Below, one piece after another: positions 1,539 to 7,499 of a stretch of DNA of 48,431 nucleotides. The notes beneath the pieces were generated by a model, which saw only the letters and a program-made list of their open reading frames with translations, did no database searches and was not told the DNA's origin. Numbering within the stretch: the first letter of the stretch is position 1; each line of letters starts with the position of its first letter. Source of the stretch: a virus; IMG/VR virus record IMGVR_UViG_3300000176_000015, positions 1 through 48,431 of that record; one strand, 5' to 3'. The position numbers and the translations under genes are program-made.

Positions 1539-3064
1539 TTGCCTGCTCCTTTGCGCCATTGCATGTTCATCTGAGTAATTTTGTTGTAAACATTGCGGGT
1601 AATCTCAACCGTGGGCGCAGTCGTGAATCGCCATGTCGGGTCTTGCCCTGTGATCTTCTTGTAGAGGTGATACGCACGGCCTTGCTGGTTCTCGGGCTTG
1701 CTGTGGTGACGAGCGTATGAGACGCATTGATGCCAAAGGTGTTCAAGGTTGTCAGCCAGTTTCTTTTTGTTCTTGCCTTCACCAATGAAAATCTCTTGCA
1801 TCTGACCCGGCAGCGCCTCTTTCATGGCAGGCGACACCTTCTCATACCCGCACGCCATGCAGCGTTTATGGAATGGTTTGTAGCCACACTTGGGGCAACC
1901 CTTCAATTCGTAGTCTTCGTCTTTGCGAATCTTCTTGTCGAGCTTCTCGCCATCGTCCAGCTTGTCCAGACCGTTGAAAAACACTTCGGTAAAGTCTTCG
2001 GCAAAACGCACGATGTTGCCGCTGAAGTCGAGCAAGTAACAATCAGTCTTGCCAGTCTCAGGCGATGAGCGCAGGCCACGCCCCCACATCTGGATCGCCG
2101 TGGACAACGACTTGCGCAGAGGACGTGCATCGCACACACAACCAACGTCAGGCACATCAAACCCTTTAGCCAGAGCCTCCACGCTGATCAGCACCTTGAG
2201 GTAGCTGTCAGGCTTGCGATACTCTTTGAGCAGGATTTCACGCTCTTTGGCAGTCGTCTCGGATGTGAACACCGCGGCCATGACGCCGTGATCCATGAAC
2301 TGCTGGGCGATCTCTTTGCAGTGCTTGATCGTTGCGCCAAACACGATGGTCTTGCGGTTCTCAGCAAACTTCATCCACTCCAAGACAACATCGCCCACGA
2401 TGTCCAAGCCACGCTCTTCTGCGGCTTTGTCTGTCCACTCACCACCGCGTGTCTCAGCGCCTGCCATATCGGGCTTGGTGCAGCTAAAAATCCGCATGGG
2501 CACCAACACCCCTGACTCGGTCAGATCGTGCATTGTGGTGGCGTTGATGAGGTTTGAGAATATCTTTCCCAACCCTGCGCTGAATGGCGTCGCAGACAAG
2601 CCAATGAACGCCGCGCCGCTGGTCATGGCGTACTCAGTCCAGACCTTGAGCTGGGTATGGCATTCATCCACCACGATGACATCAGCCTTTGGCCAGTAGC
2701 CACGCTTGGCCACGGTCTGCGCCGATGCGATCTGCAACAGTTCATCGGGGCGACGACGCCAGTGGTTGGCTTGGACGATGCCGTGCGCCTCAAGGCCGTA
2801 GCCAATGGCCGCCTCGGACGTCTGGTTGATCAGCGTGGTGCGATCGCACAAGAAGATCGCACGCTTGCCGCGCTGCATGGCTTCGTTGCAGATGCGCAGG
2901 CCAAGGTAGGTCTTGCCAGCTCCCGTAGGAGCCATGATCAATTGGTTTTTGTGGCCATCTTTGAAACCTTGTCGCAAGGCTTGATGGGCGGTCATTTGAA
3001 AGGGACGAGGAGCAGGGAAAGTTGATCCGTCATCACCCTCACGCGGGGCTAGGACTGCACTCAT
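1535..3064 (-). CDS. SF2 DEAD/DEAH-box helicase with C-terminal zinc ribbon
   Basis: This 509-aa protein has motif I APTGAGKT (residues 45-52), motif II DECH (133-136) and motif III GLSATP. The second RecA-like domain holds the IQMWGRGLR motif. A four-cysteine zinc ribbon, CPKCGYKPFHKRCMACG, follows at about residues 390-410. This layout matches phage SF2 helicases of the UvsW/RecG-like or replicative type, which unwind or remodel DNA in an ATP-dependent way. The start overlaps the ParB-like gene stop (TAATG) and has an AAAAGG RBS. It is the likely replication or recombination helicase of the leftward early operon. Its precise role cannot be read from sequence. Confidence 0.88.
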   Translation of the reverse strand: MSAVLAPREGDDGSTFPAPRPFQMTAHQALRQGFKDGHKNQLIMAPTGAGKTYLGLRICNEAMQRGKRAIFLCDRTTLINQTSEAAIGYGLEAHGIVQANHWRRRPDELLQIASAQTVAKRGYWPKADVIVVDECHTQLKVWTEYAMTSGAAFIGLSATPFSAGLGKIFSNLINATTMHDLTESGVLVPMRIFSCTKPDMAGAETRGGEWTDKAAEERGLDIVGDVVLEWMKFAENRKTIVFGATIKHCKEIAQQFMDHGVMAAVFTSETTAKEREILLKEYRKPDSYLKVLISVEALAKGFDVPDVGCVCDARPLRKSLSTAIQMWGRGLRSSPETGKTDCYLLDFSGNIVRFAEDFTEVFFNGLDKLDDGEKLDKKIRKDEDYELKGCPKCGYKPFHKRCMACGYEKVSPAMKEALPGQMQEIFIGEGKNKKKLADNLEHLWHQCVSYARHHSKPENQQGRAYHLYKKITGQDPTWRFTTAPTVEITRNVYNKITQMNMQWRKGAGK

Positions 3065-3879
3065 TATTTTGCCTTTTTAAGTTTGTCGATTTGACTTTGA
3101 AGTTTCTTGCACTCTTTGATGAACTCGTTCTTCTCACGCATGAGCGAGTCGATGCGCACTTGCATCTGCGCCATGAGAAAGTTTTTCTTTTTCAACTCTT
3201 CGTGTGCAACCGCCAGTTTGTCGTCAGCCTCCAAGATGATGTTGAGCAACTCAATGTCGGCCTGCATGGCACGCTCGTTGGCCTCCAGCTCCTCGGCGCT
3301 TGGCTCGTTGCCATCGTGCAAAGAAGGCTTCGGTTCGTCTAAACCGTGCGAGTCGGTTGAACCGACTGAAACATCCGAATTAGCTACTTTATCAAGCAAC
3401 TTCTTTTCGTAGTGATGCTTTACTTTCTCTTTTTGCTTGGCTTTTGCCTCGGGATTTCGGATGGAAGCCACAAAAGTATCGGACACTTTGCACAATTTGG
3501 CGATGTGCGTGTTGGGCAATTCACGCAGCTCTTCGTCAGCCAAAGCCGCTTCGACGACCTTGCGCTTGGTGGCGTTGTTGCGTTGCAAGCCGTGCTTGTC
3601 ATTGACGCCCAATGAGGCAATGAAGGCGTCACGCTTGGTGCCGGGCTTGTAGTGCACCTCAATCTCTTTTTCGCCCAACTCGTGCACCGCAAAATAGCGG
3701 TGAAAGCCATCGTAGAGCCAGTAGTCTGTGCCGTCGAACATGACGTCGATGGGCGGGAAGATGTCGCCACCACGCATGGCTTCTTTGTAGACACCGACCA
3801 CTTCTTGGTTGATCTGGTCACGGAACTGCGTGTTGCCGTCGATCCGTATGCTGTCTAGTCTCACTTTACGTTTTGTCAT
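3064..3879 (-). CDS. ParB-like protein with N-terminal ParB domain, HTH and C-terminal coiled coil
   Basis: This 271-aa protein has a ParB/Srx-type N-terminal domain with DGFHRYFAVHELG at about residues 57-69. A helix-turn-helix-like region follows at about 105-140 (NTHIAKLCKVSDTFVASIR), and a long Lys/Glu-rich coiled coil fills the last 90 residues. GGAGAAAACA precedes the ATG. ParB-domain proteins bind palindromic DNA and in some cases hydrolyse CTP or cut DNA; which applies here is not known. The gene itself contains one copy of the 17-bp palindrome AGTCGGTTGAACCGACT, encoding VGSTDS between the HTH and the coiled coil. That makes this protein a natural candidate to bind the repeat, which is inference. 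Confidence 0.75.
   Translation of the reverse strand: MTKRKVRLDSIRIDGNTQFRDQINQEVVGVYKEAMRGGDIFPPIDVMFDGTDYWLYDGFHRYFAVHELGEKEIEVHYKPGTKRDAFIASLGVNDKHGLQRNNATKRKVVEAALADEELRELPNTHIAKLCKVSDTFVASIRNPEAKAKQKEKVKHHYEKKLLDKVANSDVSVGSTDSHGLDEPKPSLHDGNEPSAEELEANERAMQADIELLNIILEADDKLAVAHEELKKKNFLMAQMQVRIDSLMREKNEFIKECKKLQSQIDKLKKAK
3351..3367. repeat. 17-bp palindrome, copy 1 (inside ParB-like gene)
   Basis: AGTCGGTTGAACCGACT is a perfect 8-bp inverted repeat around one central base. Five further copies, two perfect and three with 13-bp cores, lie at 23403, 29945, 38293, 45486 and 48343. Here it encodes SVGSTD in the ParB-like protein. Confidence 0.9.
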
Positions 3880-3891
3880 TGTTTTCTCCAG

Positions 3892-4497
3892 TTATAAAAG
3901 AAAGCCCATTTGTTGCGCAAAATCAATGGGGTGTTTTGCACTTTTTTTGCGATTGCAAGTTGGGCAAAGCAATTGCAAATTTGTTTTGTCGTTTGTTCCA
4001 CCACGCGCCAGTGGCATGATGTGATCTACATGATGTTTTTGTTTTTTTAAACTTGTGTAGCACATTGCGCATAAATTTTTTTGCGCAATAAATAAAAATT
4101 TAATGTCCTCTCCATCATGAGAACCACTTGCATTACGTTTTAACGCTCTGTAGCGATGTCTTGCAGCGGCAATAATTTCGGGATTTTTTTCTCTATATAT
4201 CCGGTTTTTTTCTTTAATTTTCTCTACATTTTTAAAATAATATTTTGCATTGTTCTCGACAATTTTTTTAGGATTTTCAATGCGCCATTTTGCGCTCCAA
4301 TCATTAAATCTTGCAATATTTTTTTTGTTATTTTTTTTCTTTAATGCCAATGCCTTTTCTGGATTTTTTTCCATCCAATTTTTGGCATAGCCAATTTGGC
4401 ATTTTTTGCATTGGTAGCAATAACCATCAAGAGTTCTGTGATTTTTATAGAACTCTTCAAAAGGCTTTAAAGCCTTGCATGTGGAACATGTTTTCAT
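3892..4497 (-). CDS. HNH endonuclease with N-terminal zinc ribbon, AT-rich
   Basis: This 201-aa protein has two CxxC pairs at the N-terminus (MKTCSTC...YQCKKC), a Lys/Asn-rich middle and a C-terminal HNH nuclease domain. The domain carries CAMC, HHVDHIMPLARGG, NLQLLCPTCNRKK. It is a free-standing homing-type endonuclease. The DNA is visibly richer in A/T runs than the flanking helicase and ParB-like genes, which supports recent transfer. It is the first large gene of the leftward early transcript, just downstream of the promoter at 4593-4622, and it interrupts the route from promoter to ParB. Unlike the other homing genes here it does not overlap the next start. Confidence 0.85.
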   Translation of the reverse strand: MKTCSTCKALKPFEEFYKNHRTLDGYCYQCKKCQIGYAKNWMEKNPEKALALKKKNNKKNIARFNDWSAKWRIENPKKIVENNAKYYFKNVEKIKEKNRIYREKNPEIIAAARHRYRALKRNASGSHDGEDIKFLFIAQKNLCAMCYTSLKKQKHHVDHIMPLARGGTNDKTNLQLLCPTCNRKKSAKHPIDFAQQMGFLL

Positions 4498-5037: not shown

Positions 5038-5089
5038 TTAAAGAACAACTTTAATTTCGTGTTATAGTAACGGCACGACAATGTTGTCG
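5038..5089 (+). promoter_or_regulatory. Early control region: two inverted repeats flanking a -10-like box
   Basis: TTAAAG-AACAA-CTTTAA (5038-5054) is a perfect 6-bp inverted repeat. TATAGT (5063-5068) is a candidate -10 box for the rightward genes. CGACAA-TG-TTGTCG (5076-5089) is a second perfect 6-bp inverted repeat near the expected transcription start. GTCGGTTCA (5086-5094) also matches half of the genome-wide palindrome. The -35 box is not clear. The arrangement fits operators controlled by the Cro-like protein. Confidence 0.5.
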
Positions 5090-5105
5090 GTTCACTGGAG
5101 CACGA

Positions 5106-5195
5106 ATGTCTCTCAAACCCCATCAGGCGCTGATTTGCGTCTACATCCTCTCAATCCTCGTTGTCCTCATGGACGTCTTTTTCTGGAGAATCTAA
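5106..5195 (+). CDS. 29-aa single-pass membrane peptide
   Basis: ATG 5106-5108 follows CTGGAGCACGA, a good RBS. The peptide begins MSLKPHQALIC, has one hydrophobic helix (about residues 8-27) and ends FFWRI. Its stop overlaps the ATG of the SSB-like gene (TAATG), which argues that it is translated. It is the first gene of the rightward early transcript. Function unknown; tiny early membrane peptides in other phages alter the host envelope or exclude other phages. Confidence 0.5.
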   Translation: MSLKPHQALICVYILSILVVLMDVFFWRI

Positions 5196-5842
5196 TGTCT
5201 TTTTACGTTGAAAACAAAGGCGGTGACTTTGAAGCCACGCCACCCGGTATGCACCTCGCACGTTGCTACCGCATCGTTGATCTCGGCACGCAAAAATCCG
5301 AGTTCAAAGGCCAAGTCAAGTACCTGCGCAAAGTGATGCTCGGTTGGGAGCTGCACGGTGTCAAAGATGACGGCACGCCGCTCTTGATGAAGGACAAGCG
5401 ACCATTCGCTGCTTTCAAGAACTACACCCTCAGTTGGTCTGACAAAGCCACCTTGCGCATTGATTTGCAGTCTTGGCGTGGTAAGCCCTTCACCGCCGAA
5501 GAACTGCGCCGCTTTGACCTCAAGACGATCTTGGGTGCATGGTGCATGTTGAACATGGTCGAGAAGGCTGGCGACAACGGCAAGACCTACATCAACGTGG
5601 CCAATATCAGCCCCGTGCCTGCCGTGATCAAACAAGCTGGCCTGCCCACCGCGGTTAACGCCAATGAGGTGTTCAATCTAGATGAGCCAGATATGGCCAT
5701 GTTTGAGAAGTTCAGCGACAACCTCAAGACAAAAATCCAGTCTTCTCCAGAGTGGCAAAAGCTCCAAGGGAAAACACCTGTTGCGCCACAGCAACCCCAA
5801 GGTTCGCCCTCGTTTGACGAAGACGATGACATCCCATTTTGA
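5195..5842 (+). CDS. Probable single-stranded DNA-binding protein, SSB-like
   Basis: This 215-aa protein begins MSFYVENKGGDFEATPPG, with TCTGGAGAATCTA as RBS. Upstream starts would swallow the 29-aa peptide gene and have no better RBS. The body contains HLARCYRIVDLGTQ and basic, aromatic beta-strand-like segments. The tail is Gln/Pro-rich and ends DEDDDIPF, the acidic hydrophobic tip through which bacterial SSBs recruit partners. The family is common in phages beside exonuclease and recombination genes, as here. The assignment rests on this tip, the context and recalled family resemblance; an OB-fold cannot be proved by eye. Confidence 0.6.
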   Translation: MSFYVENKGGDFEATPPGMHLARCYRIVDLGTQKSEFKGQVKYLRKVMLGWELHGVKDDGTPLLMKDKRPFAAFKNYTLSWSDKATLRIDLQSWRGKPFTAEELRRFDLKTILGAWCMLNMVEKAGDNGKTYINVANISPVPAVIKQAGLPTAVNANEVFNLDEPDMAMFEKFSDNLKTKIQSSPEWQKLQGKTPVAPQQPQGSPSFDEDDDIPF

Positions 5843-5856
5843 ACTAAAGGATTAAT

Positions 5857-6162
5857 ATGTTTATTTCCAAAGCTGAGAAGCTGGCCATGCAAAAAGACAT
5901 CGCCAACCACCAAGACACCATTACTGGCCTGACGGTTGAGCTGTACCACGCAAAGGCAAGGATTGATTTGTTTGAAAAGTCGGAAAAGCAAATCGACGAA
6001 CTGATCAAGATTTGCAAAACCATGAACAAACGTATTGCCAAATTAGAAGGCGTCAAGATGGTTGACAGACGAACTCTGCCCAAGTCAGAGGAGACTCGTG
6101 AAAAACACCGTCTGGCTGTGAAAAAGTATTGGGCAGAGAAAAAAGCAAAGGAAGCTAAATGA
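5857..6162 (+). CDS. Coiled-coil early protein (101 aa)
   Basis: This 101-aa protein begins MFISKAEKLAMQKDI with AAAGGATTAAT as RBS. Heptad-like hydrophobic spacing runs over residues 5-65, followed by a very basic tail (REKHRLAVKKYWAEKKAK). No domain is recognised. Its stop once overlapped the start of the exonuclease gene (ATGA at 6159). That start is now a 13-codon remnant. Confidence 0.65.
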   Translation: MFISKAEKLAMQKDIANHQDTITGLTVELYHAKARIDLFEKSEKQIDELIKICKTMNKRIAKLEGVKMVDRRTLPKSEETREKHRLAVKKYWAEKKAKEAK

Positions 6163-6201
6163 CCACAATCATTGCAAGATCAGCTTCGGCATACCATTGA
6201 T
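6159..6201 (+). pseudogene. Remnant of original exonuclease start
   Basis: ATG 6159-6161 opens a 13-codon frame MTTIIARSASAYH ending in TGA. Its first nine residues equal the first nine of the exonuclease at 6714. The DNA differs at seven of 27 bases, and every change is synonymous. The TGA lies where the intact gene has a TGG Trp codon after His. This looks like the old 5' end, cut off by insertion of the HNH-AP2 gene. Confidence 0.75.
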
Positions 6202-6240
6202 AGGTATACAATGAAGTCTTGTTCATTGAAAGGCAAAGCC

Positions 6241-6717
6241 ATGACGCAACAAGATTTCATCGACAGGTTTGAGTACCAAGACGGCAAATTGTTTTACAAA
6301 AAATCGGAAGGGTGCATGAAGCAAGGCTCCGAAGTTGGTACGGTAGACAAAGGTGGATATTTGAAAACTTTGATTAAACGCAAGCCATATCGTTTGCACA
6401 GAATCATTTTCATGATGCACCACGGATACCTGCCAAAGTTTATTGACCATATTGACGGCGACCCAGCCAACAATCGGATTGAGAACTTGAGGCCAGCAAC
6501 AGCATCCCAAAACAATTTGAATCGCGGGAAACACAAACGAAACACCTCTGGATACAAGGGTGTCACATGGGTAGCAACCGAAGGTCGTTACTCAGCACGG
6601 ATTGCAATTGGCCAAAAACGTCTTTTCCTTGGGTATTTTGAAGACCCTAAAAAAGCACATGAAGCCTACTGCGATGCCGCCCAAAAACATCAACCGCAAT
6701 ATGTGAGAACACAATGA
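6241..6717 (+). CDS. HNH-AP2 homing endonuclease
   Basis: This 158-aa protein starts MTQQDFIDRF, with AAAGGCAAAGCC upstream; an in-frame ATG at 6211 is possible. The HNH core reads LHRIIFMMHHGYLPKFIDHIDG followed by NNRIENLRPATASQNNLN, the classic HNH_3/NUMOD-like layout. The C-terminus is an AP2-type DNA-binding domain (SGYKGVTW...YSARI..LGYF.....AHEAYCDAA). It should cut a site near the exonuclease start and promote its own spread. Its TGA overlaps the regenerated exonuclease ATG, so coupling is preserved. Confidence 0.9.
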   Translation: MTQQDFIDRFEYQDGKLFYKKSEGCMKQGSEVGTVDKGGYLKTLIKRKPYRLHRIIFMMHHGYLPKFIDHIDGDPANNRIENLRPATASQNNLNRGKHKRNTSGYKGVTWVATEGRYSARIAIGQKRLFLGYFEDPKKAHEAYCDAAQKHQPQYVRTQ

Positions 6718-7499
6718 CGACGATTATTGCAAGAAGTGCAGAAAATACACACTGGTACGGCCAAGACGGCTCACCAGCCTACACCGTCAAAGCAAAGGAC
6801 GGCTCAGACCGTCCTACAACGCTCAGAGACGCACGAAAACTTAACTTGGTGCCTTCGGTATCAACCATCATGCGCGTGGCTGCAAAGCCCGGTTTGGACG
6901 TTTGGAAGAACGAACAACTGCTCTTGGCCGCCTTGACCTTACCCAAGGTAGAAGGCGAGACTGAGCAGGCGTACATCGCCCGTGTGGTGGCCGACTCCAA
7001 AGAGACTGGCAAACGTGCGGCCGAGCGTGGCACGTTGATCCATGAGTCCATTGAGCGTCACTACCGTGGCCAGCAAACCGACCATCCAGTCATCGTCAAA
7101 GCGTTTGAGGAAGCCGTGTTTGAGCACTTCAAGACCCACCCATTCCAGAAGTGGGAGACAGAGGTGTCATTCAGCCACCCCATGGGCTTTGGCGGCAAGA
7201 CCGACTTGTTCACCCGCCCCGATGAGTCTGCGCCGCTGGGCATCATGCTTGACGCAAAGACCAAAGAGTTTGACGAGGACGACAAGATCGACGTCTATGA
7301 CGAGCACCTCATGCAACTGGCTGCATACCGACAAGGTGTTGGAATGCTCCACGCTCGATGCGCAAACGTCTTCGTCTCTGTGAGCAATCCCGGCTTGATC
7401 AAAGTCGTGGAGCACAGCGAGGAAGACCTTCAACGTGGGTGGCTGATGTTCCAGTCACTCTTCAATTTTTGGATCGTTAAAAACAAATTTGGAGCTTAA
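6714..7499 (+). CDS. PD-(D/E)XK exonuclease, RecB/Cas4-like
   Basis: This 261-aa protein shows the nuclease core in order: GTLIHES (residues 106-112), GFGGKTDL with Asp164, MLDAKTK with Asp180 and Lys182, and QLAAYRQG at about 201. These are the metal-binding and catalytic elements of RecB-like exonucleases. Such phage enzymes degrade DNA ends for recombination or recycle host DNA, and the SSB-like gene upstream suggests a recombination pair. The start overlaps the HNH-AP2 stop (ATGA). Its first nine codons are duplicated, in recoded form, at 6159 before the inserted endonuclease. Confidence 0.85.
   Translation: MTTIIARSAENTHWYGQDGSPAYTVKAKDGSDRPTTLRDARKLNLVPSVSTIMRVAAKPGLDVWKNEQLLLAALTLPKVEGETEQAYIARVVADSKETGKRAAERGTLIHESIERHYRGQQTDHPVIVKAFEEAVFEHFKTHPFQKWETEVSFSHPMGFGGKTDLFTRPDESAPLGIMLDAKTKEFDEDDKIDVYDEHLMQLAAYRQGVGMLHARCANVFVSVSNPGLIKVVEHSEEDLQRGWLMFQSLFNFWIVKNKFGA

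Follow-up and report, generated by a model that had tools for sequence, protein, structure and literature searches.

A free-standing phage HNH gene whose mobile unit likely includes a replacement 5' end for its target exonuclease gene

Homing endonuclease genes that are accompanied by a spare end of the gene they invade are known from fungi. The WHO elements of Torulaspora and Lachancea yeasts lie in FBA1, and their cleavage activity and the resistance of particular alleles have been proven. In the parts of that study drawn on here, WHO genes are free-standing homing endonuclease genes located beside an important host gene and associated with a duplicated, diverged gene end; homing replaces the end of the gene, the resident end remains as a fragment, and alleles are near-identical (99%) to one side of the cut and divergent (85%) beyond it, all of which has a likeness at the phage locus described below (Coughlan et al. 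2020, eLife 9:e55336, PMC7282813). Nonetheless, WHO is a yeast nuclear system with an intein-derived protein carrying a zinc finger, about 400 bp of replaced 3' end and a clustered arrangement (PMC7282813), whereas the phage element encodes an HNH-AP2 protein, concerns about 36 nt at the 5' end and lies in an operon whose start and stop codons overlap. Mobile ORFs with replacement C-termini in fungal mitochondria (Allomyces atp6; Glomus atp6, atp9, cox2 and nad3) similarly join an endonuclease ORF to a foreign gene end, with the native end persisting as a fragment and many synonymous differences between the two; as far as the cited sections go, these differ in affecting the 3' end, in using LAGLIDADG or GIY-YIG enzymes and in being organellar (PMC3630166). 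Among phages, the T4-type endonucleases SegF, SegG, MobA and MobE are also free-standing, are expressed from host operons and in some cases lie inside coding sequence, but MobE and MobA each leave their target divided into two polypeptides, and a replacement gene start is not described in the portion of the source used (PMC2988022). Phage HNH-AP2 proteins (PHROG_99) share the domain order and the site beside a nucleotide-metabolism gene; again, the cited part of the source describes no replacement gene start (PMC10448857), and the present locus gives no intron signal. In the literature searched, which covers subscription journals sparsely, no phage element with a replacement 5' gene start was found.

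The window, i.e., the whole 48.4-kb stretch of DNA that was analysed, is a phage record containing terminase, portal and tail genes. The region of interest begins with a gene at 5081-5842, which we take to be ssb-like from its DDDIPF end (its 5195-5839 part has no Pfam match), followed by a coiled-coil-like gene, the HNH-AP2 gene and the exonuclease gene (Table 1). The HNH gene matches Pfam HNH_3 (PF13392) at E 2.5e-17 (62.7 bits vs. a cutoff of 24.8) and the PHROG_99 HNH endonuclease at E 3e-61, with a weak AP2 match (PF00847; E 1e-4; 22.8 bits, below the cutoff of 33.3) placed after the HNH domain; no relative with a solved structure was found at E up to 0.01. Its start is more likely ATG 6241 (MTQQDF) than ATG 6211 (168 aa) or TTG 6172, because the frame from the position of 6211 stops early in the related loci L037 and L038 and begins with ATA in L035 (loci are designated by L numbers throughout). 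A group I intron was rejected, as Rfam matches at 5800-7000 with E up to 1 include no intron family and one sub-threshold snoRNA, and so was an intein, since stops follow in the frame of the remnant and the exonuclease starts from an ATG of its own. The window contains a second HNH gene (3892-4497, minus strand; PF01844, endonuclease VII-like PHROG_1035) directly before a ParB-like gene (3064-3879); inspection by eye showed no duplicated start there.

Table 1. Features of the HNH-exonuclease region, in window coordinates
Feature	Position	Strand	Evidence
Small coiled-coil-like gene, 101 aa	5857..6162	+	ORF; homologues at the corresponding position in L003 and L004
Orphaned remnant of the resident exonuclease start, 26 nt	6159..6184	+	26/26 nt identical to the intact start of L003
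Junction bases TTCGGC	6185..6190	+	align with L003 only with a gap
Inferred mobile unit: leader, HNH gene and exonuclease codons 1-12	6191..6749	+	left edge; L033/L121 switch
Leader with short inverted repeat ATACC (6191-6195) / GGTAT (6203-6207)	6191..6240	+	alignment of 8 leaders
HNH-AP2 homing endonuclease gene, 158 aa	6241..6717	+	PF13392, weak PF00847, PHROG_99
PD-(D/E)XK exonuclease gene, 261 aa	6714..7499	+	PF12705 (E 1.4e-5), PHROG_298 exonuclease
Putative replacement exonuclease start, codons 1-12 (MTTIIARSAENT)	6714..6749	+	0/33 nt differ from L004
Conserved HWY codons, putative 3' edge of the replaced segment	6750..6758	+	H13, W14 and Y15 invariant in the exonuclease alignment

The original prediction was that the peptide MTTIIARSA is encoded both before and after the HNH gene, and direct reading of the sequence confirms this. 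The two copies, ATGACCACAATCATTGCAAGATCAGCT (6159-6185) and ATGACGACGATTATTGCAAGAAGTGCA (6714-6740), differ at 7/27 nt; five codons are changed, all synonymously, including TCA/AGT for Ser. In the whole record, the degenerate 21-mer ATGACNACNATHATTGCAAGA matches twice, at these two copies. The ATGA overlap with the preceding gene, which had also been predicted, is present at both (stops at 6162 and 6717), and the coiled-coil-like gene, whose TGA overlaps the remnant ATG, was the predecessor of the exonuclease gene before the insertion. The TGA that the upstream copy meets in place of a TGG Trp codon proved to be incidental: it is no evidence of a mutated Trp codon, because the match to L003 ends after 26 nt (6159-6184), the TTCGGC that comes next is of doubtful exonuclease origin, and CATTGATAGG, which holds the TGA, belongs to a mobile leader common to eight elements.

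When IMG/VR was scanned with the exonuclease, 29 loci were recovered, all without this HNH gene in front. One of the uninterrupted relatives continues from the upstream remnant into the exonuclease, as the prediction had required. In L003, which has no HNH gene and whose exonuclease is 99% identical to that of the window, the coiled-coil gene overlaps an exonuclease start that equals the window remnant over its 26 nt, the best match among all HNH-free starts, and then runs on into the gene. In L004, whose exonuclease is 97% identical and likewise lacks an HNH gene, the start is that of the window's working copy. Within codons 2-12, the window differs from L003 at 13/33 nt, compared with 23/747 nt (3.1%) in the rest of the gene (Fisher 1e-10, kinship ignored); L004 and L003 differ at 13/33 nt in this block vs. 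46/747 outside it. Because the remnant is that of L003, the working copy is that of L004 and the block stands out in this way, the window holds a dead resident start and a working foreign one. The L004-like tract continues to about 6944 (about 230 nt) and then becomes mixed and L003-like, as would be expected of a longer conversion tract; L003-like and L004-like stretches form a fine mosaic on both sides in the window.

L033 repeats this history independently and more cleanly. Its remnant is the start of L121 (29/29 nt), and outside the start block its exonuclease is 96.3% identical to that of L121 (3.7% different), against 15/33 nt different in codons 2-12 (Fisher 5e-12, kinship ignored), a block that differs by 1/33 nt from the distant phage L111. 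Fifteen sites in nt 6-36 of the gene tell L121 from L111, and 14 of these are L111-like, while nt 36 matches neither; from nt 46 on, the sites are L121-like with few exceptions, and the whole gene has 182 L121-like, 23 L111-like and 11 unassignable sites. In L034, the remnant is the start of L149 (29/29 nt), whereas the working start differs from it at 15/33 nt, compared with 17.2% in the rest of the gene (Fisher 2e-4, kinship ignored; elsewhere in this gene a window reaches 16 differences, so that the block is not the most divergent). The working start of L034 instead resembles that of the HNH carrier L032 (2/33 nt different), although the rest of the two exonucleases is just 76% identical. 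For reference, seven HNH-free Ser-Val pairs with identity of at least 93% differ on average at 0.7/33 nt, with a maximum of 3.

In the window, L033 and L034, the remnant matches the start of the nearest HNH-free relative as judged from the rest of the gene. Thus, in all three a diverged gene end has taken the place of the resident one, which is left behind as a fragment; the fragment is less clear in L036 (14 nt) and L037, whose remnants are short or match every sampled start poorly, and no convincing remnant was seen in L032, L035/L039, L038, L040 or L191-L194 (L191 and L192 have identical exonucleases, and L191, L192 and L194 may be one phage). The window element therefore works like WHO without being a WHO element, since its protein belongs to HNH_3 and its target is a phage exonuclease gene. 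L190 differs in that its HNH frame begins with MSLTAS, nearly the MTLTAS of the exonuclease, which suggests that the HNH gene uses the resident exonuclease start; its two copies differ at 1/18 nt, i.e., there is no recoding.

These comparisons also bear on the proposal that the endonuclease arrived with its own recoded start and left the protein unchanged. Arrival with a start of its own is favoured by the foreign start in three phages and by the shared ends of the elements, but recoding by the element is not needed, as HNH-free phages have the same spellings (L004 that of the window; L111 that of L033, with 1/33 nt different). Mutational recoding in place was rejected for the same reason. The protein is indeed unchanged over the nine residues, whereas codons 11-12 read Asn-Thr instead of the Ser-Val of L003.

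Eight elements, including that of the window, share a left edge (ATACCA) and a 50-nt leader, and their upstream flanks are different and unrelated. On the right, the return of L033 to L121-like sequence takes place after nt 36 and before nt 46 of its exonuclease gene, where the conserved HWY codons lie. From the shared left edge and this switch, we conclude that the mobile unit probably comprises the leader, the HNH gene and the first ~12 exonuclease codons, with the right edge taken from L033 because the donor-like tract of the window runs too far to fix it at codon 12. The inverted repeat ATACC...GGTAT at the left edge (window 6191-6207) is found in several elements. A conserved RNA hairpin in the leader was unconvincing, with fold z-scores against shuffles of -1.6 (window), -1.5 and -0.4. 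A search for solo copies with the leader pattern returned 30 stretches, seven of which are known HNH-exonuclease contigs; a local search found this HNH gene near none of the other 23. Twelve HNH-free records contained no other related HNH gene beyond matches of just 29-38% identity in three of them. In L032 (2985-3010), the ssb-like gene in front ends (ATACCATTC TAG, IPF*) where the left edge of the element lies, and the 8-nt overlap ATACCATT may represent junction microhomology.

The HNH relatives L032-L040 all lie in front of the same exonuclease family, and a wider HNH scan added L190-L194. All 14 relatives that are at least 55% identical and whose exonuclease side is visible have an exonuclease homologue 0-6 nt downstream; L195 (64% over 102 residues), whose contig ends at the gene, is outside this count. 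Between the window HNH gene and those of L032-L035, pN is 0.05-0.08 and pS 0.40-0.62, which indicates that the gene has been kept functional. In all ten pairs among the window, L032, L033, L034 and L035, pS is lower for the HNH gene (0.38-0.62) than for the exonuclease gene (0.66-0.86), so the HNH gene has spread between lineages after the phages diverged. With L036 and L038, which are more distant, the lower pS of the HNH gene does not hold consistently, the difference being lost or reversed in several pairs. Taken together, the 14/14 placement and the 10/10 pairs indicate mobility between genomes at a fixed site.

Where this site lies can be approached by comparing 102 exonuclease starts (L031, L037 and L194 were too short; duplicate contigs and unplaceable starts were left out). 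Ser-Val at codons 11-12 occurs in 0/13 HNH-bearing and 54/89 HNH-free exonucleases, the HNH-free ones including close relatives and kinship being ignored; among exonucleases at least 60% identical to the window protein, the counts are 0/4 and 53/60 (kinship ignored). This association fits a target that spans codons 8-15 and is absent from the replacement start, with the HWY codons as its probable edge, and loss of the cut site through the replacement start is plausible. Thr at codon 12 is found in seven HNH-free sequences near the clade (L004, L008, L029, L110, L111, L144 and L147) and in an eighth, L168, which is more distant. Some of these alleles may be scars left when the HNH gene was deleted between two starts. 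For L004, this is plausible in light of its contrast with L003 between block and rest; L110 and L111 could likewise be scars of lost elements, as they carry the L033-type start block. The "element" start is thus not confined to the element: L004, L110 and L111 have it without an HNH gene.

What the compared sequences show directly is a duplicated start, remnants identical to the starts of uninterrupted relatives, codons 2-12 of foreign origin in three phages, shared element ends and transfer of the HNH gene. These features likely belong to a free-standing HNH homing element that carries, as part of its mobile unit, a new 5' end for the gene it targets. The cleavage, its position, the immunity and the repair route that we infer would be as follows. 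The endonuclease would act on sensitive exonuclease genes, cutting in the vicinity of codons 9-12 (consensus around GCAGAGTCCGTTCATTGGTAC), and repair from an element-bearing phage would insert the leader, the HNH gene and diverged exonuclease codons 1-12, which would run in frame into the conserved HWY codons. The resident start would stay upstream as a short dead remnant, while the exonuclease would remain intact, translated from the ATG that overlaps the HNH stop. The element could thus enter the gene without destroying it, because it brings a differently spelled copy of the gene start, and this diverged start probably also renders the occupied allele uncuttable.

The foreign start might instead have no role in immunity and have hitchhiked by co-conversion from a diverged donor, or have served to repair the reading frame. 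The donor-like tract of about 230 nt in the window, the occurrence of the same starts in HNH-free phages and the almost identical copies of L190 would agree with this. However, Ser-Val, common in HNH-free exonucleases, is kept in none of the 13 HNH-bearing ones, and the foreign tract of L033 stops right after the presumed target, so that we regard hitchhiking as rather unlikely. The fine mosaic of the window also invites the thought that ordinary recombination brought an L003-like left side and an L004-like right side together, meeting at the HNH gene by chance, with an element that carries no start. This is distinctly improbable, because L033 and L034 acquired the structure separately and from different parents, and the carriers L032 and L034 share the block although their exonucleases are otherwise just 76% identical.

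Duplication of the start within a single phage, followed by landing of the HNH gene between the copies and their subsequent drift, would suit L190, with its single difference in 18 nt, but in the window and L033 it is contradicted by a working copy that matches another phage, with the closest relative matched by the remnant and by the remainder of the gene; we consider it very improbable. An assembly chimera of two alleles is hardly credible: all sequences are metagenomic contigs and both alleles occur in the same phage group, yet 14 other loci have the HNH-exonuclease junction as well, and the junction of remnant and leader is seen again in L033 and L034. The homing element with its own replacement start remains our preferred reading.

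Five HNH loci at other genes share this layout, which counts in favour of the preferred reading. A survey, for which a scan of genome contigs contributed six loci, covered 167 distinct HNH places, 139 of them with a gene start just downstream; this start is duplicated upstream of the HNH gene in 8/139 cases, compared with 2/276 for other ORFs at the same loci (Fisher 0.003), and in 5/126 (p 0.03) when the exonuclease loci are set aside. The five are L042 (DUF968-like), L058, L062 (FRASSLAEIM protein), L344 and L047/L048 (DUF5856). In L047/L048, ten residues (MEKSMALFLA) are encoded twice with 9/30 nt different, all synonymous, and the copies in L042 and L058 also show many synonymous differences. 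Among named phages, no close uninterrupted relatives were found for L042, L058, L344 or L047/L048, the best identities being 44-55%, and these cases are accordingly identified by duplication. In L047/L048 and L344, the HNH gene is fused in frame to the upstream start copy. The opening codons of the HNH frame are those of the downstream gene in L047/L048 (2977-3510), L344 (2023-2590) and L190 (2994-3500), where the HNH gene appears to use the start codon and ribosome site of the resident gene. In L314 (2340-3100), a gene end (DASEYGY..GWD) is repeated on both sides of an HNH gene; this looks like a mirror case, involving a gene end rather than a start, and resembles fungal C-terminal replacement.

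It is tempting to generalize, with a confidence that falls somewhat short of even, to a class of phage HNH genes that invade useful genes at their first codons by means of their own uncuttable starts, whose loss would leave resistant scars that cannot be invaded again (L004, L110/L111 and perhaps others) and some of which (L190, L047/L048 and L344) would use the resident start and ribosome site. If scar alleles do resist re-invasion, phage gene starts would record past invasions.

The arrangement explains how an endonuclease gene without an intron, and without splicing, can lodge at the beginning of a useful phage coding sequence at low cost, and it suggests how the endonuclease may protect itself from its own cut. 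Within this context, the window element is a 5'-end phage counterpart of the WHO elements, the presumed ancestors of yeast HO. The natural allele series L003/L004/window and L121/L111/L033 offer candidate substrates, sensitive and presumably resistant, for the endonuclease. More generally, where a phage gene adjoins an HNH gene, its first codons and its remainder can have separate histories, and a short orphan ORF preceding an HNH gene can turn out to be a dead gene start.
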